A stretch of 36,689 nt of DNA from Desulfocapsaceae bacterium (GTDB lineage Bacteria > Desulfobacterota > Desulfobulbia > Desulfobulbales > Desulfocapsaceae), in NCBI GenBank assembly GCA_031292275.1, contig JARLHL010000065.1, forward strand, positions 1 through 36,689. Reading direction: 5' to 3'. Under the pieces are notes generated by a model. That model saw nothing but the letters and a program-made list of their open reading frames with translations. It did not search any database and had not been told where the DNA came from. Of this stretch, positions 6,946 through 36,689 are shown in pieces. The position numbers and the translations under genes are program-made. Every line of letters starts with the position of its first letter. The stretch's first letter is position 1.

Positions 6946-6961
6946 TGGTTCGTAAATTGCA
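6946..6961 (+). promoter_or_regulatory. Sigma-54-like site abutting the kinase start (weak)
   Basis: TGGTTCG-TAAA-TTGCA has the invariant GG (6947-6948) and GC (6959-6960) at correct spacing. It would place transcription start near 6972, one base before the chosen ATG. Either the mRNA is leaderless, the true start is a later ATG (6979 or 6988), or the match is chance. Confidence 0.3.
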
Positions 6962-6972
6962 GGATTATAGGT

Positions 6973-21773: not shown

Positions 21774-21808
21774 GCAAATTTCCCTGACTTGTTTTCATGA
21801 AATAAATT

Positions 21809-21838
21809 TTGATTTATCACTGATAGTATGTCTAAAAT
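21809..21838 (+). promoter_or_regulatory. Sigma-70-type promoter for hemerythrin-PilZ gene
   Basis: TTGATT (21809-21814) and TAAAAT (21833-21838) are separated by 18 bp in an AT-rich stretch, about 50 bp before the start codon. The predicted transcription start is near 21845. Confidence 0.55.
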
Positions 21839-21891
21839 ACGACAAGAAAGGAGAAAACGCGCAATGGATTTGGTGATTTAGGGGGGAGGCT

Positions 21892-22683
21892 ATGGATGCC
21901 AATATTCAATGGAGCCCGCGAATGCAGGTGGGTTCCAGCAGGGTCGATAACCAGCACAAGGTGATATTTGACCTGATAAAGGACATCAACCGCTCGATCG
22001 GTGCAGGAGCAAACATGCAGGTCCTGGATACTCTGCTGAGTGTGGTGCGTAATTATGCCTTTAAGCACTTTGAAACCGAAGAGGAGTATTTTAAGAACCA
22101 TCCCGATTATCCCCGGCATTGTCTGGAACACTACAAGCTGATTAAGGAACTGAATACGTTCATTATTAATTTCAGAAATAACAGAAAGGACGGAGAAAAA
22201 GAACCCTCGGCCTTTCTTGAAAACTGGCTGACCCGGCATATTGAAGAGTATGATAAGCCTTTTTTCTTCCATGAGACGGCCAATCTTTCCCTGATGAACG
22301 AATCCGACCGGGTCGATGAATACGAGCCGAAGATCAAAGAAAGGCGCCTGTCCCGGCGGATACACCATAAGGATGTCGTTGACGGGGATATCCGTGTCCA
22401 TTGCTATAATGCCAGCCGTCTGAAAAGCGGGACGGCAACTATCGTGGATATGAGTACGGGCGGATTACTGCTGCACTCCCGGGATGTATATGAAATTGAT
22501 GATCTTCTCGTTGTTACGTGCAGCATTGGCGCAAACTTTAAAATGAAAGAAAAGGTAAGGGTGAAGAGATCGGATAAGAAAATATACGGTGTCGAGTTTA
22601 TTTCCCCCTCCTCTGTAACCATAGAGTTTTTAACTAAACTCTATGGAGCCGTCCACTTGCACCGCAACACCCGTTTGCCTTGA
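21892..22683 (+). CDS. Bacteriohemerythrin-PilZ fusion protein
   Basis: A 263-residue fusion. Residues 1-135 form a bacteriohemerythrin with a full set of diiron ligands: His22 (VDNQHK), His59 and Glu63 (HFETE), His76 and His80 (HCLEH), His116 and Asp121 (HIEEYD). Residues 148-255 form a PilZ domain with the cyclic-di-GMP-binding RRLSRR (151-156) and DMSTGG (Asp186, Ser188, Gly191). The protein probably joins oxygen (or NO) binding to cyclic-di-GMP signalling in the cytoplasm. There is no output domain, so it likely acts by contact, for instance on motility. A strong GGGGGAGG site precedes the start. It is a single-gene unit with a promoter and a terminator. Confidence 0.93.
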   Translation: MDANIQWSPRMQVGSSRVDNQHKVIFDLIKDINRSIGAGANMQVLDTLLSVVRNYAFKHFETEEEYFKNHPDYPRHCLEHYKLIKELNTFIINFRNNRKDGEKEPSAFLENWLTRHIEEYDKPFFFHETANLSLMNESDRVDEYEPKIKERRLSRRIHHKDVVDGDIRVHCYNASRLKSGTATIVDMSTGGLLLHSRDVYEIDDLLVVTCSIGANFKMKEKVRVKRSDKKIYGVEFISPSSVTIEFLTKLYGAVHLHRNTRLP

Positions 22684-22686
22684 TCC

Positions 22687-22713
22687 GGCAGGCTGCCCTC
22701 AGGGGCGCCTGCC
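22687..22713 (+). terminator. Terminator after hemerythrin-PilZ gene
   Basis: GGCAGGC and GCCTGCC enclose GCCC/GGGC, an 11-bp stem with one bulged T, followed by a T-rich tract about 15 nt later. It starts 4 nt after the stop codon. Confidence 0.65.
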
Positions 22714-22828
22714 ACTCGCCTGCCTCTTTTCGGCTTTCAGGTCGAGAGCAAAGCCTGTCAGCCTCCATATTTGTTTCTGTTTGTTCTAAAAGTGTTTCAT
22801 TTTATAAAATGTGTTTCACCTCGTTTTC

Positions 22829-22858
22829 CAGGAAAGGCTAGAAAAGCCCGTTTTCCTG
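22829..22858 (+). other. RNA-like hairpin in long intergenic region
   Basis: CAGGAAA-GGCT-AGAAA-AGCC-CGT-TTTCCTG can fold into a 7-bp plus 4-bp stem with a 3-nt bulge. There is no T run, so a terminator is less likely than a structured leader or small RNA. Confidence 0.35.
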
Positions 22859-23122
22859 TCTTGCGTGCAGCTCATAATTCATGCCAGGCTGGGGCGTGAC
22901 GGCCATGGAGGCCCCATCTTCGCGGCCTTGCATGAAGGAAAGACGGACGTTGTCTAAGCAGTCCTTTGCCAGTCCAAAGGTGCTGCCGTAATCGGTTCTT
23001 CCTGCATGCCTGGCGCTGCATTTTTGTTTCAGATTTCTCCCTCACATGACCGTTGCATTTCATAATGTTCCTTTCTGTTCCGTTGTGTTTCTGAATGTCT
23101 AATTCCCGGAAACAGTGAAAGC

Positions 23123-23138
23123 TGGTTCAAAAGTTGCA
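23123..23138 (+). promoter_or_regulatory. Candidate sigma-54 promoter of the Cache kinase operon
   Basis: TGGTTCAAAAGTTGCA has GG (23124-23125) and GC (23136-23137) at correct spacing and a full TTGCA -12 box, but a poor -24 box. The predicted start is near 23149, giving a 160-nt leader. It resembles the site before the other kinase (TGGTTC-N5-TTGCA). Confidence 0.4.
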
Positions 23139-23308
23139 GAAGCTAGTGGTGACTAGTCGCAAAAAGGTCTTTCCCGGGTTGGACAGGCATGCGGCATCTT
23201 TGTGAGGCAGAAGTTGGAGGAGCAAAGGAAGGCATGAGCGGTTGGGGAGGGCAGAAGGGGCAGGGCGATTTCATTTCACAATGCTGCGCGATTCTCAAGG
23301 GAACAGGC

Positions 23309-24970
23309 ATGAATGCAAAAGCCAATTATTTTATAAGACTCCAGAAGATTCTGACTTCCGCCTTCTTTGTCCTGATCATTATCCCCACCTTGATTATTGT
23401 GTGGGTGACTTCCACGAGTTCAAGAAAGGAGGCCATCGACAAGATCGAATTCTCCGAAATTCAGTTGGTCGAACACCGGAAGGATGTCATTGAACTCTTC
23501 CTGAGGCAGCAGGAGGATCTGCTCGCTATTATGATACGTCTCTATCCTGCCGATGTTCTCAAAGATCAGAAAAATCTCAGCGCCATCTTCGCGGCAATGA
23601 GTAAAACCGGGGATCTGGTCGATCTGCAGGTCCTTGACGCATCGGGGACGCAGCTTGCCTATGTAGGGCCGTATAGAGTCAATGTCGCCGGCAAAAATTA
23701 TAAGGATGCCCCCTGGTTCAAAGAGGTACTGGTCGACGGCAGACACATAAGCGATGTTTTCCAGGGGTACAGGGATATTCCCCATCTGGTTGTGGCAGTA
23801 ACGGATCCGTCACGGAGCATTATTCTGAGGAGTACCTTGAATTCGGAAATTTTCAATGGTTTCCTCTATAACGCCCGGATCGGTTCCAACGGAGATGCCT
23901 TTATTCTGAACGCCGCTGCCGAATTTCAGACGCCCAGCCTGAAGGGTGGCGGGAATAAACTGGACCCCTGGGAGAAGGAACTGGTGAGGCGACACCAGGG
24001 TACTTCGATTTCCAGGATCGGTTCGTATCTTTATGCAACAGCCTGGATGAAGGATGATCAGTGGATCCTTGTCGTCAAGTCCAAAGTGGAGGATTCCCTG
24101 GGGCACTATGACGAGCGCCGGAACAACAACCTGATCATCATTGCCGTTACCTCGGTTGTCGCCCTGTCCGTGGCTGTTTTTGTCAGCCATTTTATGGTGG
24201 TCAGAATGGAGCGGGCCGAGCGGGAGAGGTCTAATTTTAACCAGCAGATGGTGCAGATGGAGAAGATGGCCACGGTTGGCCGGCTGGCGGCAGGCATTGC
24301 CCATGAGATAAACAATCCTCTCCAGATGATCACGACCCAGGCGGGCTGGATCAAAGAACTGCTTGAGGAGGAAGATCCCGGGCAGTCGAAAAACCGGGAG
24401 GAGTATCTGGAGTCCGTCACCAAGATCAAATATCACGTGCAGCGGGCCGGCACTGTCACCCACCGGCTCCTCGGATTTTCAAAGAAAATGGCCAGCCAGC
24501 GGAATACCGTCAACGTTAATGAGATCGTTGAGGAGACCATCTCCTTTGTGGAGAATGAGGCAAAAAATAACAGCATCGAGATTATAAGAGATCTGGGTGA
24601 GGATGTTCCCCTGACCATGACCGATGGCGCCCAATTGCAGCAGGTGGTGCTGAACATCCTGAACAACGGCATGGATGCCCTGATTCAGAACGGCAGGATT
24701 GAGATCAGCACAAAATCGGATACCAGCAATATCGTAATAGAATTTTCCGACAACGGACCGGGGATGACGGAGGAGGTCATGAAGCATATCTTCGACCCCT
24801 TTTTTACCACTAAACCGGTGGGTAAAGGGACTGGTCTCGGTATGTCGATCTGCTACAACATCATGCAGAAGCTGGGGGGCCATCTTCAGGTGAAGAACCG
24901 GAAGGAAGGTGGCGCCGTTTTTACCCTGGTCCTGCCCATTGTGGCTGTTATTGAAGATAACATTGTATAA
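23309..24970 (+). CDS. Sensor histidine kinase with extracytoplasmic Cache-like domain
   Basis: About 553 residues. TM1 is at about 13-33, a periplasmic Cache-type sensing domain fills roughly 34-270 ([37 protein letters not shown]), and TM2 is at about 273-297. A coiled linker leads to HisKA with phospho-acceptor His332 ([16 protein letters not shown]) and a HATPase domain ([26 protein letters not shown]). No HAMP domain is obvious. The start at 23309 is preferred to 23189 because AAGGGA lies just upstream and the added residues are low in hydrophobicity and family likeness. It is followed 34 bp later by a stand-alone receiver, its likely partner. The ligand is unknown. Confidence 0.9.
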
Positions 24971-25004
24971 TTACAGGAAGATTACTGAGAAAGGAGTGGT
25001 CGCA

Positions 25005-25427
25005 ATGGAACCATTTAACGTTCTTATTGTCGATGATGAACAGGAGTTCAGGGAGATGACCATCAAGCGCCTGAACAAGAGGGGCCTGAGGTGCTTCGGG
25101 GCGGAGAATGGCATGGAGGCGTTGGAACAGGTGGAAAAACGAGAGATTGACGTGGTGCTGCTCGATGTCAAGATGCCGGGAATGGATGGGATCATGACTT
25201 TGCGGGAGATTAAACGGATACAGCCCGAAATCGAGGTCGTCATGCTTACCGGACATGCCTCGGTGGAGTCGGGGATTGAAGGAATGAGATTGGGTGCCTT
25301 CGATTATCTGATGAAACCAATCGAGCTCGAACCGCTGATCGAGAAACTGCTGGAGGCCAATGAAAAGAAGGTCTTGCGCCGGCAGAGCATGGATTCAATC
25401 CGGAATGACAATTCCGGCGCCCTGTAA
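25005..25427 (+). CDS. Stand-alone response regulator (receiver only)
   Basis: A 140-residue receiver domain with acidic pocket VDDEQE near residue 10, phospho-acceptor Asp54 (VVLLDVKMPGMDG), switch Thr in LTGHAS and Lys104 in LMKPIE. There is no DNA-binding or enzymatic output domain, so it must act through a partner protein. It is 34 bp downstream of the Cache kinase gene with a clear AAGGAG site and is its probable phosphate acceptor. It shares LTGHASV, GAFDY and KPI features with the second receiver at 30219, suggesting the two are paralogues serving one pathway. Confidence 0.92.
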   Translation: MEPFNVLIVDDEQEFREMTIKRLNKRGLRCFGAENGMEALEQVEKREIDVVLLDVKMPGMDGIMTLREIKRIQPEIEVVMLTGHASVESGIEGMRLGAFDYLMKPIELEPLIEKLLEANEKKVLRRQSMDSIRNDNSGAL

Positions 25428-25572
25428 GGCCCGAGCACATGACGGCTGGGTTATGCGGGGGGGAAAGGGTATCAGTCTTTTCTTCCTTAGATGGCCTGAC
25501 GGAAAAAAATAGAAAATAAGGTGGATTAACGAAAACATGTAGGAATAATTTTGAGAATTTTAGGAGGAGAAT

Positions 25573-26850
25573 ATGAGGTTTTTACGTGATTTACACTGTT
25601 TACTCATGAAAGGGTCGCAGGCCCATGCCAGGTGGGAGTTGGAAATGTCCGACAATATCCTGCGCAGCCGCGGCAGGATGTTTATCCTTGGTCTGCTGCT
25701 GATCCCGGTTTTTCTCGGCGGTATCGCCATTGCCGGCGGCGATGGCTCCAATCTTCCCCAGCTTATCGGAGGCAAGTCGGCGTATATGCCATCATTTTAT
25801 ACCCCGGTTATTTTCTTTGCGTCAATCTTTGTCGGACTGTGCGCGGGGCTTATCACCGGTTGTATCGGCGCCGGCGGCGGTTTCATTATCGCCCCTGCCC
25901 TGATGAGTGCCGGCGTCAAGGGTATCCTGGCGGTGGGGACTGACCTTTTTCATATCTTTGCCAAGGCAATCATGGGCAGTGTCCTTCATAAAAAACTGGG
26001 TAATATCTCTGTATCGCTGGCCGTGACCTTTCTTATCGGCTCCATAGTGGGTGCGACCCTCGGCGGTATGCTGAACAGGTACCTCTATGACCTGAACCCG
26101 GTGCTGAGTGACCTCTTTATCACGGTAGTCTATGTTATCATCTTGGGTTTCCTCGCATTTTATGCCCTTATTGATTACTACAAGGCGAGAAAGGGGGAGG
26201 CTGCCGAATCTGCACCCGGCGCCGGGGCGGCCGAAGCGATCCCGCCCATGGGGAAGAAAATTCAATCTGTCAATATCCCTCCGATGCTGACCTTTGATGA
26301 AGGCATTACCCCGGGCGGCCGGAAGATCTCAGCGATTTTTCTGATCCTGAGCGGCTTCATTGTCGGTATGGCTGCTGCGATCATGGGTGTCGGCGGCGGC
26401 TTCCTGACCTTCCCGATCTTTGTTTACGGGCTGGGCGTTTCATCCATGACCACAGTGGGCACGGATATATTCCAAATCGTTTTTACAGCAGGTTACGGTG
26501 CTCTCAGCCAGTATGCCATCTTCGGTTTTGTTTTCTATACCCTGGCAATGGGGATGTTGCTGGGCTCGCTGATAGGTGTGCAGATCGGCTCATTGGTGAC
26601 CAGGATCGTGCCGGGGATCATGATCCGCGGCTTTTTCGCCCTGGCGGTCACGGCTGGTTTCATCAACCGATTTTTCGCCTTGCCTGAAAAACTGCAGAGT
26701 TTGAAGATGATTGCGATTTCAAAGGATATAGGGGCCCTTTTAAATACCGTTGGCAACAGCCTGTTCTTTGTGATCATAGGGGCTTTCACGGTATGGGTAT
26801 TGTATTCATTTTTCAGTAATATAAAAGAACTGAAAACGGAGGGGCATTGA
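25573..26850 (+). CDS. TauE/SafE-family anion permease
   Basis: A 425-residue membrane protein of the TauE/SafE family. About 35 soluble N-terminal residues (with SQAHARWELEMSDNILRSR) precede 8-10 TM segments. The two family repeats are seen at ITGCIGAGGGFIIAPALMSAGVKG and AAAIMGVGGGFLTFPIFVYGLG, each followed by a VGTD motif. A ~60-residue cytoplasmic loop rich in Ala and Pro lies between the halves. The family exports or imports sulfite, sulfoacetate and other small anions; which one here is unknown. A strong AGGAGGAG site precedes the start. It is followed after one base by a two-TM protein, so the pair is co-translated. Confidence 0.9.
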   Translation: MRFLRDLHCLLMKGSQAHARWELEMSDNILRSRGRMFILGLLLIPVFLGGIAIAGGDGSNLPQLIGGKSAYMPSFYTPVIFFASIFVGLCAGLITGCIGAGGGFIIAPALMSAGVKGILAVGTDLFHIFAKAIMGSVLHKKLGNISVSLAVTFLIGSIVGATLGGMLNRYLYDLNPVLSDLFITVVYVIILGFLAFYALIDYYKARKGEAAESAPGAGAAEAIPPMGKKIQSVNIPPMLTFDEGITPGGRKISAIFLILSGFIVGMAAAIMGVGGGFLTFPIFVYGLGVSSMTTVGTDIFQIVFTAGYGALSQYAIFGFVFYTLAMGMLLGSLIGVQIGSLVTRIVPGIMIRGFFALAVTAGFINRFFALPEKLQSLKMIAISKDIGALLNTVGNSLFFVIIGAFTVWVLYSFFSNIKELKTEGH

Positions 26851-26851
26851 T

Positions 26852-27541
26852 ATGAGCGTGCAGAAAAAAATGAAAATCAGAGGAATTCTGATGCTGATCA
26901 GTTTCTTTGGAATCCTGGCGGTGATCTTTTCTCCAATCTTTCCTGGAAAAAACAATGGCTTGGATTATATGGATAATCTTTTTAACACCATCTCCAAAGG
27001 ATCATCCTATTTTATTCCCAAGGCTATGACGGACAGTGAGAAATTTGTCGGAAAGAATATTGACCTCAAAATCAAAATGGAAAATGAACAGCAGGCGACA
27101 GACACGGCAAAGCTTCTGCAGGAGGCAGGTGCTCAGGTTCAGGTGACCGGTAAAGAGCTGGCTGTCAAGGGAGATGCCGGCCATATTCTGAAGAGCTGTC
27201 TCACCGATGCCGACTTCATGTTCAAGAACGATGGAAAGCCGATTGCCGATAAGTACGGATTCTCAGAGCGGAAGGCCTTGTATGACTGGTGGGTGGCATT
27301 TAAGGCCATCGGCAATGAGCTGACCGTCCAGAGTAATTTTGAACTGGTCAAGTCCTTTTCCAATGTCCAGAAAAAGGCCCTTGAACCTGCCTATAACTAT
27401 TACAACATAGAGGCCAAAAGCTGGGAGAAGAATATCTTCCTGATTGTCTGTGCACTTGGCTTTTATGTCTTCTATACCCTTTGGTATGGTTTTGGTCTTT
27501 TGTATCTCTTTGAGGGAATCGGTCTCAAGATCGGACATTAA
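26852..27541 (+). CDS. Unknown two-TM protein, partner of TauE permease
   Basis: A 229-residue protein that I do not recognise. TM1 is at about 9-27 (GILMLISFFGILAVIFSPIF) and TM2 at about 193-216 (IFLIVCALGFYVFYTLWYGFGLLYLF). The ~160 residues in between are soluble and probably extracytoplasmic, with a small alpha/beta unit (IDLKIKMENEQQATDTAKLL, then AGAQVQVTGKELAVKG). A GGAGGGG ribosome site lies in the end of the upstream gene, and only one base separates the two genes, pointing to a subunit or regulator of the TauE-family permease. A strong terminator follows its stop codon. Confidence 0.75.
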   Translation: MSVQKKMKIRGILMLISFFGILAVIFSPIFPGKNNGLDYMDNLFNTISKGSSYFIPKAMTDSEKFVGKNIDLKIKMENEQQATDTAKLLQEAGAQVQVTGKELAVKGDAGHILKSCLTDADFMFKNDGKPIADKYGFSERKALYDWWVAFKAIGNELTVQSNFELVKSFSNVQKKALEPAYNYYNIEAKSWEKNIFLIVCALGFYVFYTLWYGFGLLYLFEGIGLKIGH

Positions 27542-27564
27542 ATCCTTATGCGGTAACACGAATG

Positions 27565-27614
27565 GCGGACTGCGGAGGGGATGGTTTTTCCAGTTGCAGT
27601 CCGCTTTTTATTTT
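27565..27614 (+). terminator. Strong terminator or attenuator just before the PEP-synthase-like gene
   Basis: GCGGACTGC (27565-27573) and GCAGTCCGC (27596-27604) form a perfect 9-bp stem with a 22-nt loop, followed by TTTTTATTTT. The next start codon is only 12 bases after the T run, so downstream transcription must pass through or start within this element. Confidence 0.85.
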
Positions 27615-27625
27615 AAAGGGCCCTT

Positions 27626-30187
27626 ATGCAGAGAATGCTCACCTTTATTAAAGAACTGTTTTCACCCCCTCCCTCCGCGCCTCCCATGACTCCGGCTGAA
27701 CTGAAGGATGCCTTCAGAAAACGATACCGGAATTTCAGGGCCTTACTGACGGCCAATAACAATGCCCTTCAGGCCATGGCCGAGCTTGAGAAAATCTACT
27801 ATAGCGGTGAGTCCTACCGGATGGCAGTCATTCGTTCAAAGACCACCACTATCCTTGTCAATGTCTATAAGATGATCAGCAGCCTCCTGGAAATGTCGGG
27901 GGGAAGGTACAAAGATCTTGAAGTCATTTTTGAGAAAATCAGTCATGAAATTGAAAAAATAATTGAAAAGAAGCCCAGCTTTTCCCAGGGGCCATTTATT
28001 CTGCCCTTAGCGGAGGTGGGAGAAAAGGACAGGGCCCAGGTTGGCGAAAAAATGGCAAATCTGGGAGAGATTGTCCGGGTTCCCGGTTGTGTGGTTCCGC
28101 AGGGCTTCGTGATCACGGCGTCAGCCACCCGGCATTTTCTGACCGCTGATCATATCGCCGAGATCAACCGGCGACTGCAGCTGCTGGATCCCGATGACCT
28201 CGACGGACTCCTCAGGACCTGTGCAGAGATCAGGAAAGATATCCTCGATATTCCTATGCCTCCGGATCTGGAGGAGTTGCTCCATGTCCATTATGCCCGG
28301 CTGGAGATGGTCAGTCGACCCGGCTGCTGGCTGGCCGTTCGTTCAAGTGCGCTGGGAGAGGATGCCGCCGGCGTCTCCTTTGCCGGTCTCTACCGTACCA
28401 TCCTGAATGTGGACGGGGACGGTCTGGTTGCCGCGTACAAGGAGATAATTGCCAGCAAATACGGGGCCAGGGCCATTGCATACCGGCGGAAGAGGGGATA
28501 TCGGCATGAAGATATTGAGATGTGTGTCGGATGTCTGGTGATGGTCGATGCCCTTACCAGCGGTGTGACCTATTCCAGGGATCCGAGCGAGGAAGAGAGC
28601 GAGGTGGTCCGCATCAACGCCCTTTCGGGTATAGCGAAGGGGGTGGTTGATGGCACCCGGACCACGGATCTTTATCTGGTCAGCCGGGAAACACCCCATG
28701 CCGTCGTGTATCGGGAAATCCGCCAGGGGCAGGGCAAAGCTTCGGACCAGTGTGCCGACTCCTCCCTGACCTATGGCCAGATTCGGAAGCTTGCCGAAAT
28801 GGCGCTTCGTCTCGAAGGGCATTTCGGCAAGCCCCAGGATATGGAATGGTCGTTCGATCACCAGGGCGCGCTGACAATCCTGCAGAGCAGGCCGATGCTG
28901 ATCAGTCAGCCGCAGAATGCGCAGGAGGAGGCTGCTCCGTCCTCCCGGGCAGAGAACGGGGAACAGCCGATTCTTTTCGGCGGGATATGCGCCAGTACAG
29001 GTATTGCCTGTGGGACGGTTTTTCGGGTCAATGCCGCGTCAGAGATGCCTGATGTCCCGATGGGCGCTGTCCTGGTGCTTGAGCATCCCCTGCCTGAATG
29101 GGCGCCCCTGCTCAGCAGGGCAGCGGCGGTGATCGCCGAAAGCGGCAGCGAGGCCGGGCATCTGGCCACGGTATCGCGGGAATTTGCCATTCCGGCCCTC
29201 TTCAGTCTGGCGGGGGCGATGGATCTCCTTGCCGATGGCGAGACGATCACCGTCAATGCCTCGGCCCGAAGCGTGTATCTGGGGTGCCGGCAGGATCTGC
29301 TCACCCAGCGGGCAGTCAGGAAGGACATCATGGCGGGCAGTCCGGTGCAGAGGATTTTGACCGAGGCCCTGCAGTATATTACGCCGCTTAATCTCAATGA
29401 CCCCAATGCCCCGCAATTCAAATCCTCCTGGTGCGAGACCCTGCATGATATCACCCGCTTCTGCCATGAGAAATCGGTCTATGAGATGTTTAATTTCGGC
29501 CGGGAGTACAAGTTTGATCAGGGGGCTGCCAAAAGGCTGGTTGGTGAGGTGCCTCTGGAGTGGTGGGTCGTCGATCTGGCGGACGGTTTCAGGGCGGGTG
29601 CCGATGCCCAGGGTCAGACCATCCGCATTGAGGATATTGTTTCGGTGCCGATGCTGGCCATATGGCAGGGGATATCTGCCTTTCCCTGGGAGGGCCCGCC
29701 GCGGGTCAGCGTCAGGGGCTTCGGCTCCATCATCTTTCAATCGACCATGCGACCGGAGTTGGATCCGGCGGTCGCTTCTGCACTGACGACGAGAAATTAC
29801 TTTCTGGTTTCGAAAAATTTCTGTAATCTCAGCGTACGTCTTGGGTATCATTACGCAATGATTGAGGCCTATATCAGTGATCTGTTGACCGAGAGCTATG
29901 TGACCTTTCGTTTTAAAGGCGGGGCGGCAGACATGAAGCGCAAGGCTGTTCGGGCCAGACTCCTGGCCGAAATCCTGCAGACCTTTGAGTTCCGCGTCGA
30001 GCTGCGTTCAGATTCGCTGCTGGCCAGGGTCAAGAAGCGTCCGACGGAATTTCTGGAGCGGCGTTTGAAGATTCTCGGCTATCTGATCCTGCATGCCCGT
30101 CAGCTTGATATGGTCATGAATATGCCGAATGCGGTTGAGCGATATAAAGAAAAATTTCTGACGGATATCGAAAAAATGCTCTCCTGA
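27626..30187 (+). CDS. PEP-synthase-like phosphotransferase, paralogue 1
   Basis: An 853-residue dikinase-like protein. Residues 1-130 are a helical domain (TANNNALQAMAELEKI). The PPDK_N ATP-grasp domain covers about 135-435 (GEKMANLGEI, AVRSSALGEDAAGVSFAG, SGVTYSRDP, QDMEWSF, ILQSRPM). The swivelling phospho-histidine domain covers 465-560 with His512 in ESGSEAGHLATVSREFAIPA. The final ~290 residues (SSWCETLHDITRFCHEK, EWWVVDLADGF) do not resemble the PEP/pyruvate TIM barrel, which is missing. It should therefore form a phospho-histidine from ATP, but its acceptor is unknown, as with rifampin phosphotransferase-type enzymes. The start is supported by alignment with paralogue 2. Confidence 0.85.
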   Translation: MQRMLTFIKELFSPPPSAPPMTPAELKDAFRKRYRNFRALLTANNNALQAMAELEKIYYSGESYRMAVIRSKTTTILVNVYKMISSLLEMSGGRYKDLEVIFEKISHEIEKIIEKKPSFSQGPFILPLAEVGEKDRAQVGEKMANLGEIVRVPGCVVPQGFVITASATRHFLTADHIAEINRRLQLLDPDDLDGLLRTCAEIRKDILDIPMPPDLEELLHVHYARLEMVSRPGCWLAVRSSALGEDAAGVSFAGLYRTILNVDGDGLVAAYKEIIASKYGARAIAYRRKRGYRHEDIEMCVGCLVMVDALTSGVTYSRDPSEEESEVVRINALSGIAKGVVDGTRTTDLYLVSRETPHAVVYREIRQGQGKASDQCADSSLTYGQIRKLAEMALRLEGHFGKPQDMEWSFDHQGALTILQSRPMLISQPQNAQEEAAPSSRAENGEQPILFGGICASTGIACGTVFRVNAASEMPDVPMGAVLVLEHPLPEWAPLLSRAAAVIAESGSEAGHLATVSREFAIPALFSLAGAMDLLADGETITVNASARSVYLGCRQDLLTQRAVRKDIMAGSPVQRILTEALQYITPLNLNDPNAPQFKSSWCETLHDITRFCHEKSVYEMFNFGREYKFDQGAAKRLVGEVPLEWWVVDLADGFRAGADAQGQTIRIEDIVSVPMLAIWQGISAFPWEGPPRVSVRGFGSIIFQSTMRPELDPAVASALTTRNYFLVSKNFCNLSVRLGYHYAMIEAYISDLLTESYVTFRFKGGAADMKRKAVRARLLAEILQTFEFRVELRSDSLLARVKKRPTEFLERRLKILGYLILHARQLDMVMNMPNAVERYKEKFLTDIEKMLS

Positions 30188-30218
30188 TGTCCGCCGTCAA
30201 CTCTCTGGAGGTCCAGCT

Positions 30219-30602
30219 ATGCCGAATAAACTGCTGATGGTCGATGATGAGGCGGATTTTCGTGAAATCATGGGAAAATTTTTTAAACGACGTAAGATTG
30301 AGTTCGAAATGGCGGCTGGTTGCAGGGAGGCCATGGACCTGATCGGCCAGGACAGCTTTGATGTGGTGATCATGGATGTCAGCATGCCGGGGCTCGACGG
30401 AATAGAGTGCATGGCGGAAATAAAGAAGATCAGGCCCGACATGGAGGTCATAATTCTCACCGGGCATGCTTCCGTTAATACAGGTTTGGTCGGCATGAAG
30501 AAAGGGGCCTTTGATTACTGTCTTAAGCCCATCGATTTTGACGAGTTGCTGGAAAAGGTACTCCTGGCCCGGGAGAGGGCTGCCGGAAAGGCCGGAGGAT
30601 GA
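30219..30602 (+). CDS. Stand-alone response regulator between the two paralogues
   Basis: A 127-residue receiver-only protein: acidic pocket VDDEAD, phospho-acceptor Asp53 (VVIMDVSMPGLDG), LTGHAS switch and Lys103 (CLKPID). No output domain. It is 31 bp after PEP-synthase-like paralogue 1 and 33 bp before paralogue 2, with a GGAGG site, so the three genes form one operon. It resembles the receiver at 25005. The arrangement suggests it controls, or is controlled by, the flanking phosphotransferases, possibly by protein contact; this is inference. Confidence 0.92.
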   Translation: MPNKLLMVDDEADFREIMGKFFKRRKIEFEMAAGCREAMDLIGQDSFDVVIMDVSMPGLDGIECMAEIKKIRPDMEVIILTGHASVNTGLVGMKKGAFDYCLKPIDFDELLEKVLLARERAAGKAGG

Positions 30603-30635
30603 TCGCCATCAACCTATTTTTTAGTCCTTCTGATC

Positions 30636-33227
30636 ATGCATCCCATTCTGCGCCGTATTAAGGAACTTCTTTTTCCGAGCCTGAAGACCTCTCTTTCTTC
30701 GGAGGAGTTGGAGTCGCTCTTCCGGGTCCGGTACCAACACTTCCGCACCCTTCTCACCGCCAATAATAATGCCCTGGGCGCTATGGCCGAGCTTGAACAG
30801 GCCTTGATTTCCGGGCAGACCTACAGCCTGGCGCTGGTCCGGGCCAGGACTACCGTTGTCCTGGTCAGCGTTTACAAAATGGTGCAGAGCATGATTGCCC
30901 TGGCCGACGGCCGGTACCGCGATCTGGAGAAGATCTTCGAGCGGATCAGCAAGGAGGTGGACGCCATCATCGAGCGGACTCCAGCGGAGAGGGAAGGCCC
31001 ATGGATCCTGCCCCTGGCCGACATCACCAGGGATATGGCGGATCAGGTCGGGGAGAAAATGGCCAATCTGGGAGAGGCGGCAAGGCTGCCGGGCATTCGG
31101 ACGCCAGGAGGGTTCGTCCTGACCGCCAGTGCCGGCCGCTATCTGATGGCGGCTGGCGATCTGGGCCGGGAGATCAATCGCCTTGAGCAACAGCTGGACC
31201 CTGGGGATCTGGAAAAACTCTACAGCAGCAGCGCAGCCATACAGGGGCTGATCAGCGGCAGCAGCATGCCCGGAGATCTGGAGGAGCTGATGCTGTCGGC
31301 CTATGCGAGGCTTGAAGGAGAGACCCAGCCGGGCATCCTGGTGGCCATGCGGTCCAGCGCCACCGGGGAGGATCTGGCCGGAGCCTCCTTCGCCGGGCAG
31401 TATCATACCGAGCTGAACGTGGACCGGGAGTTCCTGGGCTATACGTACAAGGAGGTGGTTGCCTCAAAATTTACCAGCCGGGCCATTCTCTACCGCCTGA
31501 AAAAGGGGTATCGTCACGCTGATATCGAGATGTGCGTCGGTTGTCTGGCCATGATTGAGGCCTCGGTCAGCGGGGTGACCTATACGCGGGAACCGACCGA
31601 TCCCGGCAGTGGCTGGCTGGTGATCAATGTGGTTGCCGGGGCGGCCCGCAAGGTCGTCGATGGGACGGTCATGACCAGGCGTCTCCTGGTTTCCCGGCAG
31701 GATCCTCGGAGGATTGTCCTGCATCACGGGACCGAGAAAGGCGAACAGGAAGCTCTGTCGGGACCGCTGCTGGCAGGTCTTTTGTCGCCTGCCCTGATTG
31801 AAGAACTGGCCCGGGTTGCCATTACCCTCGAAGGGCACTTCGGCGCCCCGCAGGATATTGAGTGGTCCATTGACAAGCAGGGGCAGATCTATGTCCTGCA
31901 GACCAGGCCCATGATGGTTGCTGCCGGCAGCAGGACCCCCGAGACTGCTCCGGAGACTGCGGATCCCGATATCCTCTTTCGTGGAGAAGTGACTGCCAGT
32001 CCAGGAATCGCCTGCGGCCCGGTTTTTGTCGTCTCCTCCATGGTTGATATCCTGAGGTTTCCTCAAGACGCGGTCCTGGTGGTCGAGCATCCCCTGCCCG
32101 ACTGGGCGCCGCTTCTCAGCCGGGCCGTAGCCCTGGTGGCGACCACGGGCAGTGAGGCCGGCCATCTGGCAACGGTGGCCCGGGAGTTCGGCATTCCCGC
32201 CCTCTTCGGCCTGCCTGATTCTGTCCGGGGACTGGCGGAAGGGACGCTGGTGACTGTAGACAGCAAGGGGCGAAGAATCTATCGCGGGCGCCGTGAGGAT
32301 CTTCTCCGCCTGAATGTGAACCCGCCGCCGGATCTGATGGCGGGCAGTCCGGTGCAGGCTGTCCTGAAACAGGTCCTGGAGCGCCTGACCCCGCTGAATC
32401 TGACCGACCCCCGTTCTCCCACTTTTAAGTCGTCCTGGTGTGAAACACTGCATGACATAACGCGATTCTGTCATGAGAAGGCCGTGACCGAGATGTTTGA
32501 CTTTGGCGGCCGGTATCATTTCAGCGAAAGGGCTGCAAGACGGCTGATGGGGGATGTGCCGCTGGACTGGTGGGTCATTAATCTGGCCGACGGGTTCCGC
32601 GATGATGCCGGTGTCGATAAGAATTTTGTTCATATTAACGCCATCGCGTCGCGGCCAATGCTGGCGATCTGGGAGGGGATTTCCGCCTTTCCCTGGGGCG
32701 GGCCGCCGGTCGTGGATATGAAGGGCATGGGATCCATCCTCTTTCAATCTATCATGCAGCCCGGGCTGGACCCTGCGGTGGCCTCGCCCATGACCGCAAA
32801 GAATTATTTCCTGATCTCCCGGAATTTTTGCAATCTCAGTGTCCGTCTCGGCTATCATTTTGCAATGATCGAGGCCTATCTCAGCGATCTGCTGACGGAG
32901 AGTTATGTCACTTTCACCTTTAAGGGTGGGGCAGCCGACGGCCAGCGCAAGGCCTCCCGGATCGTGTTTCTTGCCGAGATTCTTGAAAAATACGGTTTCA
33001 GGATTGAATTAAGGGGGGATGCCCTGACCGCCAGGGTTGAAAAGAGGCCCATGGATCTTCTGCTGCAGTACCTGAAAATCCTGGGATATCTCGTCCTCCA
33101 TGCCCGGCAGTTGGATATGATTATGAATAATCCTGAAAGGGTAAACGGATACAGGGAGAAATTCCGTACAGAAATAGACAGCCTGCTCAGGTTGCAACCT
33201 TCCAGGCCTGTTGCGGAGAACGGGTAG
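30636..33227 (+). CDS. PEP-synthase-like phosphotransferase, paralogue 2
   Basis: An 863-residue paralogue of the gene at 27626, with the same order: N-terminal helical domain (LLTANNNALGAMAELEQ), ATP-grasp (AMRSSATGEDLAGASFAGQY, SGVTYTREP, QDIEWSI, LQTRPMM), phospho-histidine domain with His510 (TTGSEAGHLATVAREFGIPALFG), then the same novel C-terminal domain (SSWCETLHDITRFCHEK, DWWVINLADGF). The PEP/pyruvate barrel is absent here too. The C-terminal domain is the most alike part of the two proteins. No Shine-Dalgarno is evident in the 30 bases before the start, yet the N-terminus aligns with paralogue 1. It has a short extra C-terminal tail. Acceptor unknown. Confidence 0.86.
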   Translation: MHPILRRIKELLFPSLKTSLSSEELESLFRVRYQHFRTLLTANNNALGAMAELEQALISGQTYSLALVRARTTVVLVSVYKMVQSMIALADGRYRDLEKIFERISKEVDAIIERTPAEREGPWILPLADITRDMADQVGEKMANLGEAARLPGIRTPGGFVLTASAGRYLMAAGDLGREINRLEQQLDPGDLEKLYSSSAAIQGLISGSSMPGDLEELMLSAYARLEGETQPGILVAMRSSATGEDLAGASFAGQYHTELNVDREFLGYTYKEVVASKFTSRAILYRLKKGYRHADIEMCVGCLAMIEASVSGVTYTREPTDPGSGWLVINVVAGAARKVVDGTVMTRRLLVSRQDPRRIVLHHGTEKGEQEALSGPLLAGLLSPALIEELARVAITLEGHFGAPQDIEWSIDKQGQIYVLQTRPMMVAAGSRTPETAPETADPDILFRGEVTASPGIACGPVFVVSSMVDILRFPQDAVLVVEHPLPDWAPLLSRAVALVATTGSEAGHLATVAREFGIPALFGLPDSVRGLAEGTLVTVDSKGRRIYRGRREDLLRLNVNPPPDLMAGSPVQAVLKQVLERLTPLNLTDPRSPTFKSSWCETLHDITRFCHEKAVTEMFDFGGRYHFSERAARRLMGDVPLDWWVINLADGFRDDAGVDKNFVHINAIASRPMLAIWEGISAFPWGGPPVVDMKGMGSILFQSIMQPGLDPAVASPMTAKNYFLISRNFCNLSVRLGYHFAMIEAYLSDLLTESYVTFTFKGGAADGQRKASRIVFLAEILEKYGFRIELRGDALTARVEKRPMDLLLQYLKILGYLVLHARQLDMIMNNPERVNGYREKFRTEIDSLLRLQPSRPVAENG

Positions 33228-33228
33228 A

Positions 33229-33264
33229 TCGGGGGAGGGCCGTCTGCCCCGGCGATTCCCCCGA
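33229..33264. terminator. Hairpin between convergent operons
   Basis: TCGGGGGA (33229-33236) and TCCCCCGA (33257-33264) form a perfect 8-bp stem with an inner GGGC/GCCC stem. It starts 2 bases after the stop of paralogue 2 and lies before the end of the convergent gene. There is no T run, so termination efficiency is uncertain. Confidence 0.5.
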
Positions 33265-33281
33265 CCTGTGCTCCGGGTCTC

Positions 33282-34703
33282 TCAGGGCTCGATGATGATG
33301 GTCGGGAAGAGGCCCTTCTTCATGCCCTCCGGATAGGGTTGGATCGTATTGAAGGAGATATACTGATTCTTCTGGGCATGGCCCTTCTGGTCGCTGCCGT
33401 TGAAGAAGGCGCCGTTGGCCTGGAGGATATGTTCGATCCTGTCTCTGAAGGTCAAGATAAATTCCGCTCCGCTTCCCTCAAAGAAGAGGCCGCCGATGGC
33501 GGTGTGCGAATTGATCGCTTCGAATTTTTCGATGGAAAGACTGTTGGTGTCCAGGTCTTTGGGGGTCTTGATCATGCCCCAGACCAAATGGCCGGCGGGG
33601 ATGGTCAGCGGTTCCCTGGAATCAATAATGGTATGGGGCATGATGATGCTGTCTGCACCGATTTGCAGTCTGGCATCGGGTCTGCCGCGGAGAAAGCTGT
33701 TGAAGCCTACAAACACATGCCTGCCAAGATCTGCTTCGCAGATTTTAGTCCCATGGGCGGTGACGTTGCAGCCTTCGAGCCGTGAATTTATGATAAAACA
33801 GTTTTCCTGGGCATTGGATCCCTTGCCCAGCCAGGAATTCTGGATGAAGGCCCGCTGCGCGACCAGAACGTTTTCACCGATATGGGTCTGCCCTTTGGTT
33901 ACCGCGAAGCGGTCCAGAGAGGCATTGTTGGGTACCGGAATGGCGTGCTCCATATTGACCATGTCAAAGATGCGCTGGAAGGCCTCCTTCCGGTCCTCAA
34001 TGAAGTCCATGAAGAGTCCCTGAGGCGGGGATCCTGCAGTAAAATATATGTAATCCTGCATCTTTTCCTTCTGGTGCTGATAGAAGAAATTGAACTTGCC
34101 GGGATTTCTGACCCAGATGGTCCCCGGTTCAATGTTGAGGTGGCTGATTTCTCCCGCCTGAACGTAGCTGAAGTTCCCGATCACGCAGTCGCGGATGGTG
34201 GTCAGATCAACGGTCGCAAATGCCCCGAGAAAACAGCCATTGGATGGTGAACCGTGTATATTGGCATAGTTCATCGAGATGGTATCGGTGATGAAAAATT
34301 TTTCCAGTGTTTCGGGATCATGAGAATAGTTGTGAACCAGAGTCTTGATGAGGAGGCTGTCCTGGATGTCGATTTCCTCGTCTTCGCTGACAGGAATTGC
34401 ATAGTCCTGATAGAGGAAAAGGCTGCCCTGCTTTTTCAGCTCGTCGCCCCTGATGTCGCTCTTGTAGAGCAGCGAATTGACTACCTTGCATCTGCCGAGG
34501 AAATAGCTGCCTGCCAGGTTCGAGTTTCTAAACTGAAAATTCAGGGGATGATGGGGGGAAATTCCGTAAAACGCATAGAACTTGACCATCTGCACAAAGG
34601 GGATGATTTTCTGGGCATAGGGGTTCACGTCGAATTCGAGTTCGCGCAGGTTGATATTGACCCGCTGAATGATCCGGTCATACAATTTCTCTATTTCTCT
34701 CAT
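33282..34703 (-). CDS. Left-handed beta-helix (hexapeptide repeat) protein
   Basis: A 473-residue protein of unknown role. Two stretches have the loose hexapeptide periodicity of left-handed beta-helices: about 155-205 (CFLGAFATVDLTTIRDCVIG) and about 280-380 (HIGENVLVAQRAFIQNSWLG, then ADLGRHVFVGFNSFLRGRPD). Such folds occur in acyl- and sugar-nucleotide transferases, but I see no specific catalytic signature; it may be a scaffold or an unusual transferase. No signal peptide or TM segment. GGAGAAGG precedes the start, and the start overlaps the CBS-protein stop as ATGA, so the pair is coupled. Its product may therefore respond to whatever the CBS domains bind. Confidence 0.7.
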   Translation of the reverse strand: MREIEKLYDRIIQRVNINLRELEFDVNPYAQKIIPFVQMVKFYAFYGISPHHPLNFQFRNSNLAGSYFLGRCKVVNSLLYKSDIRGDELKKQGSLFLYQDYAIPVSEDEEIDIQDSLLIKTLVHNYSHDPETLEKFFITDTISMNYANIHGSPSNGCFLGAFATVDLTTIRDCVIGNFSYVQAGEISHLNIEPGTIWVRNPGKFNFFYQHQKEKMQDYIYFTAGSPPQGLFMDFIEDRKEAFQRIFDMVNMEHAIPVPNNASLDRFAVTKGQTHIGENVLVAQRAFIQNSWLGKGSNAQENCFIINSRLEGCNVTAHGTKICEADLGRHVFVGFNSFLRGRPDARLQIGADSIIMPHTIIDSREPLTIPAGHLVWGMIKTPKDLDTNSLSIEKFEAINSHTAIGGLFFEGSGAEFILTFRDRIEHILQANGAFFNGSDQKGHAQKNQYISFNTIQPYPEGMKKGLFPTIIIEP

Positions 34704-35344
34704 ATTGCCTTCTCCTCGGAAACTGCTTCTTTCATGGTGTTGAGAACGGCGGAAAATACGTCGGATAAGCGCAGAACCCCTATAAATCGGTCTTCCCGTG
34801 TCACCAGCAGAGAGAGTCTGTTTTTCATGAACATCATATGTGCTGCCGTATCCAGGGACGTATTTTCATCGACGAATTCATTTTCGGCAATGGTCTTCAT
34901 GAAGTCTTCCACCTTCATGTTCAAGGTTCCCGGCTGGGCGTAAAATTCCTCAAGTGACGACTTGTGGGTCTGGTATTCTTCAGGATACAGGTGGATCAAT
35001 GCCGACAGCATCAATCCGCTTTCAAGCGAAGTCTTCTGCATCCGGTACTGTTCCCGCATCGTGGATATAAAATTGGAACTGAAGCCGAATTTACCCATTT
35101 CATCAAGCTTGTCTGTGAATTTATCTCTGGGAGCCAGCGCCCTGAGAATATCAAGTTGACTGAGTTTGCCCAGTACCTTTCCATCCTTTCCCATGACCAG
35201 AACCATCCAGTGCGAGTAGAAGGCGCCACCATGCTCGATTTTGGTGTTTTCCAGCGCCAAAACAGCTTCAAAAAGCGTGGAGCCCTCGGGGATTGTCGCG
35301 TATTCCGAGAAGGGCATCATGAGATCCTTGGCAGTATAATTCAT
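34700..35344 (-). CDS. Two-CBS-domain protein
   Basis: A 214-residue cytoplasmic protein with two CBS motifs: residues 4-70 (TAKDLMMPFSEYATIPEGST, then VLVMGKDGKVLGKLSQLDIL) and 145-205 (KVEDFMKTIAENEFVDENTS, then LLVTREDRFIGVLRLSDVF). A helical insert lies between. CBS pairs usually bind adenine nucleotides and gauge energy state. The start at 35344 is chosen over the ATG at 35395 because the CBS domain begins right there and GAGG lies 10 nt upstream. It overlaps the beta-helix gene by 4 nt. A sigma-54-like promoter lies about 80 bp upstream. Confidence 0.82.
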   Translation of the reverse strand: MNYTAKDLMMPFSEYATIPEGSTLFEAVLALENTKIEHGGAFYSHWMVLVMGKDGKVLGKLSQLDILRALAPRDKFTDKLDEMGKFGFSSNFISTMREQYRMQKTSLESGLMLSALIHLYPEEYQTHKSSLEEFYAQPGTLNMKVEDFMKTIAENEFVDENTSLDTAAHMMFMKNRLSLLVTREDRFIGVLRLSDVFSAVLNTMKEAVSEEKAI

Positions 35345-35423
35345 AACAGAGCCTCTGGGGGAATATGGGTATTTTTCGGCTGTCGCCGCAAACATATCTT
35401 GTGGTTAGTCCATCAAAAGCGTA

Positions 35424-35439
35424 TGCAATATTGATGCCT
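35424..35439 (-). promoter_or_regulatory. Sigma-54-like promoter of the CBS/beta-helix operon
   Basis: On the minus strand AGGCATCAATATTGCA has GG and GC at the exact -24/-12 spacing, with GGCA and TTGCA boxes, as in the lldP promoter. The predicted start is near 35413, giving a leader of about 69 nt. Confidence 0.65.
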
Positions 35440-35694
35440 AAATGTGGAGCTTGAGCTTGCCTGAGGGATGATTACACTTTGGAAAAACGCGCCAGTCCGG
35501 CTTCGGGACTCCCGTTCCCCTTTTTCTTCTGCATGAGGGTCTTTTCTTGAAATATCCAGGTTGCAGCCCGGGTACTTTCCCCCAGGAGAATGTCCGGTCC
35601 AGAAAGCCTCCTGAACCGGAATTGCAGATCTTTGATGCCTGACTGAATGGTATAGCTCCAGAATTTCCGATTTACTGTATGAAGAGGAAAGGCG

Positions 35695-35720
35695 CAACCA
35701 GAATAATTCAACCAGAATAA
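35695..35720. repeat. Tandem 14-bp direct repeat after merR
   Basis: CAACCAGAATAA occurs twice (35695-35706 and 35709-35720), separated by TT, directly after the MerR-gene stop codon. Possible slippage duplication or protein-binding site. Confidence 0.6.
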
Positions 35721-36110
35721 CTATTTTTTGTTCAGGATATCCATGATCCGAAGCCGGTAATCGACGATTTCGTGGCGCAGGGACGACAGATTGGCAATTT
35801 TTTCGTCGACTTTGGAAATGTGCAGATCTAGAATCTCGATGAGCTTCGGGGTGATGGTGTCGAAGTCCTGTTTGTGGATGTCGAAATGTTCAGCGAGTTC
35901 CTGCATTTCATTAAGGGATATTCCGAGCTCTTTAAGCTTGAGAATAAACTTCAGACGCAGGATGTCATCCTTGTTGAAGGTCCGGGTGCCGCCGCCGAGC
36001 CGTTCCGGAGGCCCCATGAGACCGATTTCTTCGTAGTAGCGGATGGTTCGCGTTGTGATTCCGAGTCGTTTTGCCAGTTCACCTATCTGTACATTTTTTT
36101 TGTCGTTCAT
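35721..36110 (-). CDS. MerR-family transcriptional regulator
   Basis: A 129-residue regulator. Residues 7-75 are the MerR winged helix (IGELAKRLGITTRTIRYYEEIGL, then TRTFNKDDILRLKFILKLKELGISL), followed by a dimerising coiled coil. There are no conserved cysteines for metal sensing. It resembles MerR regulators of fatty-acid and branched-chain amino-acid degradation genes (LiuR-like), consistent with a divergent etfB gene. The likely binding sites are the two TTTACGTAA-containing copies in the intergenic region. The ribosome site is weak (GGGCGA). Confidence 0.85.
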   Translation of the reverse strand: MNDKKNVQIGELAKRLGITTRTIRYYEEIGLMGPPERLGGGTRTFNKDDILRLKFILKLKELGISLNEMQELAEHFDIHKQDFDTITPKLIEILDLHISKVDEKIANLSSLRHEIVDYRLRIMDILNKK

Positions 36111-36255
36111 GTTTCGCCCATATTTATGATGTCAGGAGTTAGGCCCGAGGGGGGGCGGTGCCGATGCCCCGCCTGCTGCGGCATCAGGGGTGTTGCAACC
36201 TGTCGCCTTCAGCCAGGATAGGGCTGATGGGCCGCCTCCCGAAGTTCGTTCATTT

Positions 36256-36267
36256 ACCTTTACGTAA
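36256..36267. promoter_or_regulatory. Candidate MerR operator, copy 1
   Basis: ACCTTTACGTAA, containing the perfect palindrome TTACGTAA, about 150 bp upstream of the MerR start and identical to a second copy 132 bp away. Confidence 0.55.
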
Positions 36268-36387
36268 TATACTGTGAATGATAGCATTGCTGTCTCCGGC
36301 CGTCAATGTAAAAACATTAATGTCGTAAAAACAACAACATTTGCTGGTCATGTCTGGTTCTTTCCTCCCTGGGGTATATTTTACTTG

Positions 36388-36399
36388 ACCTTTACGTAA
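36388..36399. promoter_or_regulatory. Candidate MerR operator, copy 2
   Basis: ACCTTTACGTAA again, here beginning inside a TTGACC -35-like hexamer (36385-36390) and followed by AT-rich sequence that could hold a -10 element with the long spacer usual for MerR-activated promoters. About 200 bp upstream of etfB. Confidence 0.55.
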
Positions 36400-36455
36400 G
36401 AGATATGATTTTATGTCACCGGGCTTTTTACCCTCGTGCACTTGGGGAGCAGACC

Positions 36456-36471
36456 TGGAGGGGAGATTGCG
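36456..36471 (+). promoter_or_regulatory. Weak sigma-54-like site before etfB
   Basis: TGGAGGGGAGATTGCG has GG (36457-36458) and GC (36469-36470) correctly spaced with a TTGC box but a poor -24 box. It may be chance in this G-rich leader. Confidence 0.25.
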
Positions 36472-36596
36472 AGCGCGTGATAGAGCGGAGGTTCTGGCGG
36501 AGCGTCTGGAGGTCTGAGCAGTCCGAGCCCCTGAGTGCGGGTTGTCTCAAGGGGGATGAATGATAAAGATCTAACCACCAATTAAGGAGGAAGATA

Positions 36597-36689
36597 ATGA
36601 ATATACTGGTGTGTATCAAGCAGGTTCCGGATATGGAATCGAAATTCAAGGTTGACGGCGCGGGCCGCTGGTATGACGGCGCGGACCTG
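36597..36689 (+). CDS. etfB: Electron transfer flavoprotein beta subunit (partial, 3' end missing)
   Basis: Only the first 31 codons are in the window. MNILVCIKQVPDMESKF is the characteristic N-terminus of EtfB/FixA, which binds AMP or FAD and carries electrons between acyl-CoA or lactate-type dehydrogenases and the respiratory chain. A strong site AAGGAGGAAG precedes the ATG. It is divergent from the MerR regulator, and the alpha subunit and a dehydrogenase probably follow outside the window. Confidence 0.88.
   Translation, partial: MNILVCIKQVPDMESKFKVDGAGRWYDGADL

Follow-up and report, generated by a model that had tools for sequence, protein, structure and literature searches.

What do two dikinase-like proteins do when neither carries a phosphoenolpyruvate (PEP)/pyruvate barrel and a lone two-component receiver is encoded between them? 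The question is raised by contig JARLHL010000065.1 of a Desulfocapsaceae bacterium (GCA_031292275.1; our genome G000, contig C3), the whole 36,689-nucleotide stretch of which was analyzed and is called the window here; the source genome comprises 4.14 Mb in 114 contigs and is 99.98% complete. Both proteins, D1 (853 amino acids [aa], positions 27626 to 30187) and D2 (863 aa, 30636 to 33227), are encoded on the forward strand, as is the receiver (127 aa, 30219 to 30602). A first-pass annotation of this DNA had called these open reading frames (ORFs), picked out His512 of D1 and His510 of D2 in the motif GSEAGHLATV, and noted a shared C-terminal domain; our ORF calls and Pfam searches confirmed each of these points and the coordinates. 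D1 and D2 belong to a family with at least 530 confirmed relatives (profile scan of genome contigs), a degree of conservation that chance would not produce, and we propose, at somewhat below even odds, that they are receiver-controlled dikinases governing a TauE-type sulfur-oxyanion transport system.

Both proteins matched the ATP-grasp family PPDK_N (PF01326; D1, E = 4.1e-72; D2, E = 1.1e-68) and the swivel family PEP-utilizers (PF00391; D1, E = 4e-14; D2, E = 2.7e-15), whereas Pfam at E ≤ 1 returned no PEP/pyruvate barrel family for either; D2 gave two additional weak matches below cut-offs. The earlier reading of an ATP-grasp and a phosphohistidine domain without the catalytic barrel therefore stands. 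In D1, an N-terminal helical domain (residues 1 to 118, 27626 to 27979) that had no Pfam match precedes the ATP-grasp domain (residues 120 to 440, 27983 to 28945), the phosphohistidine swivel domain (residues 445 to 560, 28958 to 29305; His512 codon, 29159 to 29161), and the C-terminal domain (residues 566 to 853, 29321 to 30184). The His510 codon of D2 lies at 32163 to 32165 and its C-terminal domain at 32328 to 33224, all on the forward strand. When the N-terminal domain of D1 was searched for in 19 relatives, 38 of 39 matches fell in frames of 822 to 1,061 aa and one in a 343-aa frame. A full-length AlphaFold2 model of D1, built from a 76-sequence alignment (D1, D2, and 74 others; mean pLDDT, 86.9), superposed at residues 120 to 553 on the rifampin phosphotransferase (RPH) RPH-Lm (5hv3; Z = 38.6, root mean square deviation [rmsd] = 3.3, 409 residues) and at residues 123 to 554 on PEP synthase (2ols; Z = 35.2, rmsd = 5.6, 363 residues). 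Conservation was scored over 191 rows (D1, D2, and 189 others, some of them fragments; 186 remain distinct when the last 500 residues are compared). E245 and R422 of the ATP-grasp domain are conserved, and K142, R239, D405, E407, Q420, and H512 are each retained in 176 to 184 of the rows (H512 in 181). D1 and D2 both keep the dikinase ATP-grasp catalytic residues and the phosphorylatable histidine. Their sequences support the assignment of both as dikinase-type phosphotransfer proteins that lack the PEP/pyruvate barrel.

The C-terminal domain, about 285 residues common to D1 and D2, includes SSWCETLHDITRFCHEK, which begins at residue 600 in D1 and 599 in D2, and carries the signature C603-x3-H607-D608-x2-R611-x2-H614-E615 (29432 to 29470; C602 to E614 of D2, 32439 to 32477). 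Retention across the 191 rows is 181 for C603, 186 for H607, 190 for D608, 186 for R611, 187 for H614, and 186 for E615. C603 is not essential, because it is substituted in two members from loci resembling the Desulfovibrio nitrate cluster discussed below (L180 and L182). The domain of D1 matched no known family. A Pfam comparison of 76 such domains at E ≤ 1 listed 14 families, none of them in more than four members (best E = 0.023) and none a PEP/pyruvate barrel. PDB sequence searches with a 4-row and a 76-row profile returned no match below E = 0.03. Fold searches gave a weak best match in the PDB by Foldseek (E = 0.059), a best Z of 7.0 by VIA-align (62 residues at rmsd = 1.9; several ferredoxin-like designs were among the leading matches), and a best E of 0.0093 in a viral structure library (TM score, 0.20); no PEP/pyruvate barrel stood among the rows listed. 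Modeled alone, the domain reached a mean pLDDT of 76.2, below that of the same region in the full-length model, and the predicted structure places neighboring strands in hairpins with no eightfold beta-alpha repeat. As modeled, the domain is not a (beta/alpha)8 barrel; the structure prediction and profile search that the first-pass annotation had suggested thus produced no barrel match. The missing or weak fold matches do not, however, establish a new fold. A scan of the loci found the domain without a kinase module in four cases, each at the cut end of a stretch or beside a split-frame partner; no receiver/dikinase fusion occurred among the ORFs of the loci scanned, and the D1 domain had no match in PLSDB plasmids at E ≤ 1e-3.

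We surveyed the surroundings of family genes with mechanically called genes labeled by custom-built profiles, and all neighborhood counts are accordingly approximate. In a close set (the best 80 of the at least 530 relatives, with 79 family genes in the 80 loci), a membrane protein gene lay directly upstream of 65 of 79 family genes, a TauE gene two genes upstream of 62, and a receiver gene directly downstream of 62, and a histidine kinase gene fell within the same-strand run of 53. The genes conserved as a unit are, in order, TauE, membrane protein, dikinase, and receiver. This survey, another suggestion of the first-pass annotation, thus revealed a conserved neighborhood but not the paralogue-receiver-paralogue order as a general rule: outside the window, that order appeared at 4 of 160 loci (0 of 80 close, 4 of 60 wider, and 0 of 20 further loci; L097, L112, L115, and L130). 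The wider set (60 loci, 82 family genes) was chosen from carriers in the sample of the window's phylum, and four of its loci repeat close-set records; same-strand runs there held a receiver in 63/82 cases, a histidine kinase in 51/82, and TauE in 44/82 (59/77, 51/77, and 40/77 without the repeated loci). Linkage was weaker in a further 20 loci (23 family genes), drawn from the second-phylum sample and from the search that found a genome with nine matches, since receiver, histidine kinase, and TauE accompanied only 7, 6, and 5 of the 23.

The connection to two-component signaling that had been read from the window was borne out by gene order. A same-strand stand-alone receiver adjoins 63 of 79 close-set family genes and 40 of 105 others (39 of 100 without the four repeated records), compared with 3 of 295 and 6 of 391 unlabeled genes in control runs that hold no family gene. 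The receiver lying exactly between D1 and D2, as first described, is an intact, full match to PF00072 (E = 3.2e-28) with D9, D10, D53, T81, and K103. All 78 aligned downstream receivers, the window's included, keep the phosphorylatable aspartate; in the 79 aligned rows (these 78 and the window's repeated as reference), D9, D10, and D53 are present in 79, position 81 is T in 77 and S in 2, and K103 is present in 78 with one gap. A histidine kinase together with exactly one stand-alone receiver was found in 30 of 170 family-gene runs, for example in the orders histidine kinase-TauE-membrane protein-dikinase-receiver and histidine kinase-receiver-dikinase.

The family follows dissimilatory sulfite reductase (dsr), a tie absent from the first-pass annotation, as were the histidine kinase, a second receiver, the TauE/SafE permease, and the small membrane protein of the window. 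The C-terminal domain was present in 107 of 297 sampled genomes of the window's phylum (its own genome included), in 27 of 100 genomes of a second-phylum sample taken as Nitrospirota, and in 1 of 299 of a third, taken as Pseudomonadota and centered on a Rhodocyclaceae carrier, that one being the center genome itself. With dsrA called as TIGR02064 over its cut-off, it was present in 102 of 107 carriers versus 41 of 190 noncarriers in the first sample, and the five carriers without it (G042, G078, G094, G113, and G164) are 62 to 80% complete. The Nitrospirota counts were 22 of 27 carriers versus 17 of 73 noncarriers; five carriers lacked dsrA over the cut-off (G328, G356, G378, G402, and G410), and G378 holds it in pieces. 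Among 12 picked carriers (nine beta-proteobacterial, one "Proteobacteria," and two "Thermoleophilia" bins), dsrA was over the cut-off in 10 and in pieces in 2. In the window's phylum, then, about a third of sampled genomes encode a family, nearly always alongside dsr, whose C-terminal domain is unnamed in the libraries searched.

Copies are often multiple: the C-terminal domain was matched four times in the window's own genome and nine times in another. On contigs G297:C83, G298:C211, and G313:C1, three matches lie about 3 kb apart on one strand, and the family probably forms tandem arrays there. The possibility that D2 arose from D1 by a recent tandem duplication was rejected, as FastTree places the two in different clades, D1 with L007 (95) and D2 with L021, L022, L025, L026, and L034 (six rows, 99), in a tree for which the program warned that some long branches meet. 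The window's pair therefore joins two lineages. By domain, D1 and D2 are 50 to 67% identical, and D1 and its L007 relative 78%.

Some members appear to be kinase dead. The swivel histidine is absent from 8 of 187 near-complete rows, and in five of these, from five genomes and one family, f43 (L100, L101, L103, L187, and L188), K142, D405, E407, and Q420 are replaced along with the histidine, whereas C603, H607, D608, R611, H614, and E615 are all retained. Each f43 dead member shares its cluster with a live member and a histidine kinase, so a kinase-dead protein that keeps the C-terminal signature stands beside a live one in five genomes. The dead members are not decaying faster, because across L100, L101, and L103 the dead proteins are 90 to 97% identical by domain and the live ones 86 to 95%. 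The existence of such members suggests a function for the C-terminal domain that is separate from the phosphohistidine of its own chain. Speaking against the pairing of dead and live members, the other three histidine-less rows (L112, cut off by the end of the fetched stretch, L163, and L174) also lack part of the C-terminal signature. In one L097 member the ATP-site residues are gone but the histidine remains, and R611 is replaced by H.

A related cluster has been described in Desulfovibrio (DVU0251-DVU0245/Dde_0597-0605). The portions of PMC4001038 drawn on here list TauE (DVU0251), a hypothetical protein (DVU0250), PtxB (DVU0249), a histidine kinase (DVU0248), a receiver (DVU0247, 360 bp), DVU0246, and a phosphatase (DVU0245), and describe DVU0246 (2235 bp) as a PPDK/mobile-domain protein with no annotated barrel. 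This cluster and the window both have TauE, a small protein, a histidine kinase, a receiver, and a PPDK_N/mobile-domain protein; the nitrate cluster differs in its phosphonate-type binding protein and phosphatase, its single receiver and dikinase, and the length of DVU0246, which is shorter than D1, whereas no PtxB or phosphatase gene lies beside D1 or D2. Among our loci, L177 has the order PF12974 protein, histidine kinase, 119-aa receiver, family member with C-terminal domain, and DSPc phosphatase, and L182 has TauE, a 257-aa ORF, a PF12974 protein, histidine kinase, 120-aa receiver, and family member. From gene order and gene sizes, DVU0246 probably belongs to the family. According to the same portions of PMC4001038, isolated transposon mutants in DVU0246, DVU0247, DVU0250, and DVU0251 grew equally with and without 100 mM nitrate, a nitrate-resistant phenotype common to all four, and a DVU0245 mutant was inhibited by nitrate. 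Pooled mutants of the cluster's histidine kinase gene had positive fitness in both strains studied; in the second strain, pooled fitness was positive for every listed cluster gene, among them those for the kinase and the phosphatase. None of the isolated cluster mutants described there outgrew the control in nitrite. The part of PMC9723548 used here links nitrate resistance to the loss of putative thiosulfate transporters. If DVU0246 is a family member, the family would offer a molecular handle on this unexplained cluster, itself relevant to whether oil-field sulfide production can be stopped by dosing nitrate.

These observations can be assembled into the proposed mechanism. The ATP-grasp domain would bind ATP and phosphorylate the swivel histidine (His512/His510), as in PEP synthase, pyruvate phosphate dikinase (PPDK), and RPH. 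The phosphorylated swivel may then dock on the C-terminal domain, where the near-invariant C/H/D/R/H/E patch would hold or sense an acceptor. The stand-alone receiver would provide the signal input, being phosphorylated by the histidine kinase of the operon or by another and switching the dikinase; we infer the receiver's role as switch because a histidine kinase is accompanied by a single stand-alone receiver in 30 of the 170 runs. The output would be the activity or assembly of the TauE/SafE permease and its small membrane partner. Control of transport is suggested because four nitrate cluster genes share one phenotype. In organisms with dsr, the cargo is probably thiosulfate, sulfite, or a similar sulfur anion. 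Members may also work in pairs in some genomes, with one partner possibly kinase dead. A more ambitious version would make the family a distinct phospho-signaling class of dsr organisms: signal or phosphate would pass between a stand-alone receiver and an ATP-grasp/swivel protein bearing a novel effector domain, and live and kinase-dead pairs would gate sulfur-oxyanion transport; we regard this as rather unlikely.

Several observations weigh against receiver-controlled transport. Nine of the 30 one-receiver runs also contain an NtrC-type gene, a possible alternative partner for the kinase. Receiver and histidine kinase are both missing from 38 of 170 runs, some of which are cut by locus ends, and another 32 of 170 contain a receiver without a histidine kinase. 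In the wider set, 38 of 82 family genes have no TauE in their run. Because one genome holds nine matches, not all copies can serve one transporter. The dsrA counts and their Fisher values ignore shared ancestry, and sulfite reductase does not require the family, since in the Pseudomonadota sample dsrA was over the cut-off in 51 of 299 genomes and the family was in one. For the nitrate cluster, the membership of DVU0246 is based on gene order and gene sizes. The portions of PMC4001038 cited above give preliminary data in which an isolated DVU0248 mutant had little or no advantage in nitrate, a negative pooled fitness for DVU0250 (-5.82) unlike that of its isolated mutant, and a leaky thiosulfate transporter as the authors' hypothesis from unpublished data. 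They also report that DVU0248 is an annotated pseudogene in D. vulgaris, which would make the cluster's own kinase dispensable in one strain, weakens the kinase step, and lowered our odds for the proposal from 0.50 to about 0.45, with both main rivals raised a little. The literature searched held no biochemistry on the family; apart from the nitrate cluster papers, no paper recognized as naming it came up in the searches of open-licence PMC papers.

The strongest competing explanation, which we consider unlikely but serious, is a small-molecule dikinase: the C-terminal domain would bind a metabolite imported by TauE, which the swivel histidine would phosphorylate, trapping or activating it as RPH does rifampin and HpeHI does hydroxyphenylethanones, and the receiver would merely regulate. 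RPH and HpeHI share the same two catalytic modules, and their acceptor domains are not the PEP barrel either (PMC4844700 and PMC12167813, in the parts used here), a transporter gene is nearby, and the near-invariant polar patch resembles an active site. However, several paralogues per genome (up to nine matches), some with their own kinase or receiver genes, would be unusual for one metabolic enzyme, as would kinase-dead members that keep the C-terminal signature. Improbable in our judgment is a dikinase that serves as phosphodonor to the receiver, passing phosphate from ATP through the swivel histidine to Asp53 as a second kind of receiver kinase. Such a donor would suit the receivers adjoining 63 of 79 close-set genes with their phosphorylation residues kept, the 32 runs with a receiver and no histidine kinase, and the D. 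vulgaris cluster, in which the kinase is an annotated pseudogene and yet receiver and dikinase still matter (PMC4001038, in the portions cited). In 30 runs, though, the sole stand-alone receiver is also near a histidine kinase, the ordinary donor, and orphan receivers could be phosphorylated by a kinase encoded at another locus. We know of no example of transfer from a swivel histidine to a receiver aspartate, which also counts against this alternative. A divergent PEP synthase with an altered pyruvate domain is very improbable: PEP synthase models are the best NCBIfam matches to D1 (residues 124 to 558) and a phmmer alignment with 2ols extends weakly to residue 698, the sole hint toward a barrel observed, but the score is below the cut-off (295.6 versus 598 bits), no barrel family appears at E ≤ 1, and the predicted C-terminal fold has hairpins in place of the eightfold repeat.

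The same-strand gene block that holds D1 and D2 begins at 23189. Upstream of D1, on the same strand, lie genes for a 593-aa sensor histidine kinase (23189 to 24970; HisKA and HATPase_c, with dCache_1 below the cut-off), a second stand-alone receiver (25005 to 25427; PF00072, E = 1.4e-31; the mechanical ORF starts at 24909, and the start at 25005 was inferred from the reading frame), a 425-aa TauE/SafE-family permease (25573 to 26850; PF01925, E = 7.3e-36), and a small membrane protein (229 aa, 26852 to 27541), the membrane nature of which was read from its sequence and which had no Pfam family match above the cut-off. The gaps from TauE to D2 are short (1 base between TauE and the membrane protein, 84 before D1, and 31 and 33 around the receiver between D1 and D2), which suggests that the histidine kinase through D2 form one operon; an opposite-strand gene follows D2 at 33282. 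A promoter and terminator scan of the locus gave no more hits than shuffled sequence, and the operon limits are therefore drawn from gene spacing. An Rfam search of 20000 to 36689 gave no match. In a second cluster of the same genome (L006, 11068 to 11835), the membrane protein beside TauE is Alph_Pro_TM (PF09608, E = 7.5e-40), unlike the window's accessory protein. Upstream of the operon, one 263-aa protein combines hemerythrin and PilZ domains (21892 to 22683), and L007 has a similar gene. Farther upstream (6736 to 11083), a 973-aa histidine-kinase-like protein is followed by a 483-aa NtrC-like regulator, both named by similarity to proteins of the loci. At L184, L185, and L186, an NtrC-like protein of about 900 aa lies directly upstream of the family member; in L185, this protein carries a sigma-54 activator domain and weakly matches a cache domain.

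Passage of phosphate from ATP to a swivel histidine and on to a separate acceptor domain is established for relatives of the family (PMC4844700, in the part used here). Like RPH and the two-component small-molecule dikinases HpeHI, CreHI, and PpsAB, D1 and D2 combine an ATP-grasp domain, a swivel histidine domain, and an acceptor domain other than the PEP barrel; D1 differs from all of these in its extra N-terminal helical domain and its receiver/TauE operon, and no relation of the C-terminal domains was detected. In RPH the histidine domain comes last and a rifampin-binding domain separates ATP-grasp from swivel, whereas in D1 and D2 the C-terminal domain is last and in D1 the two matches are only 42 residues apart (436 to 478). 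D1 did not reach the curated NCBIfam scores of the RPH equivalogs (194.8 versus 999 and 128.4 versus 1700). With PEP synthase and PPDK, D1 and D2 share the order of ATP-grasp (PF01326) and then swivel (PF00391), but no counterpart of the C-terminal PEP/pyruvate barrel of those enzymes was detected in them. A second PEP synthase/PPDK equivalog in NCBIfam was likewise below its cut-off for D1 (276.5 versus 739.75 bits), and D2 fell short of both with 283 and 280.6. Two residues before the histidine, D1 and D2 have Ala, whereas PEP synthase has Thr, in a motif with a regulatory role (PMC12167813, in the part used here). By the features tested, the family is neither PEP synthase/PPDK nor RPH. It probably works like a dikinase, combining known catalytic modules with a C-terminal output domain that has no name and with a link to two-component systems, and it joins the normally separate phosphohistidine worlds of the dikinases and of the two-component receivers.

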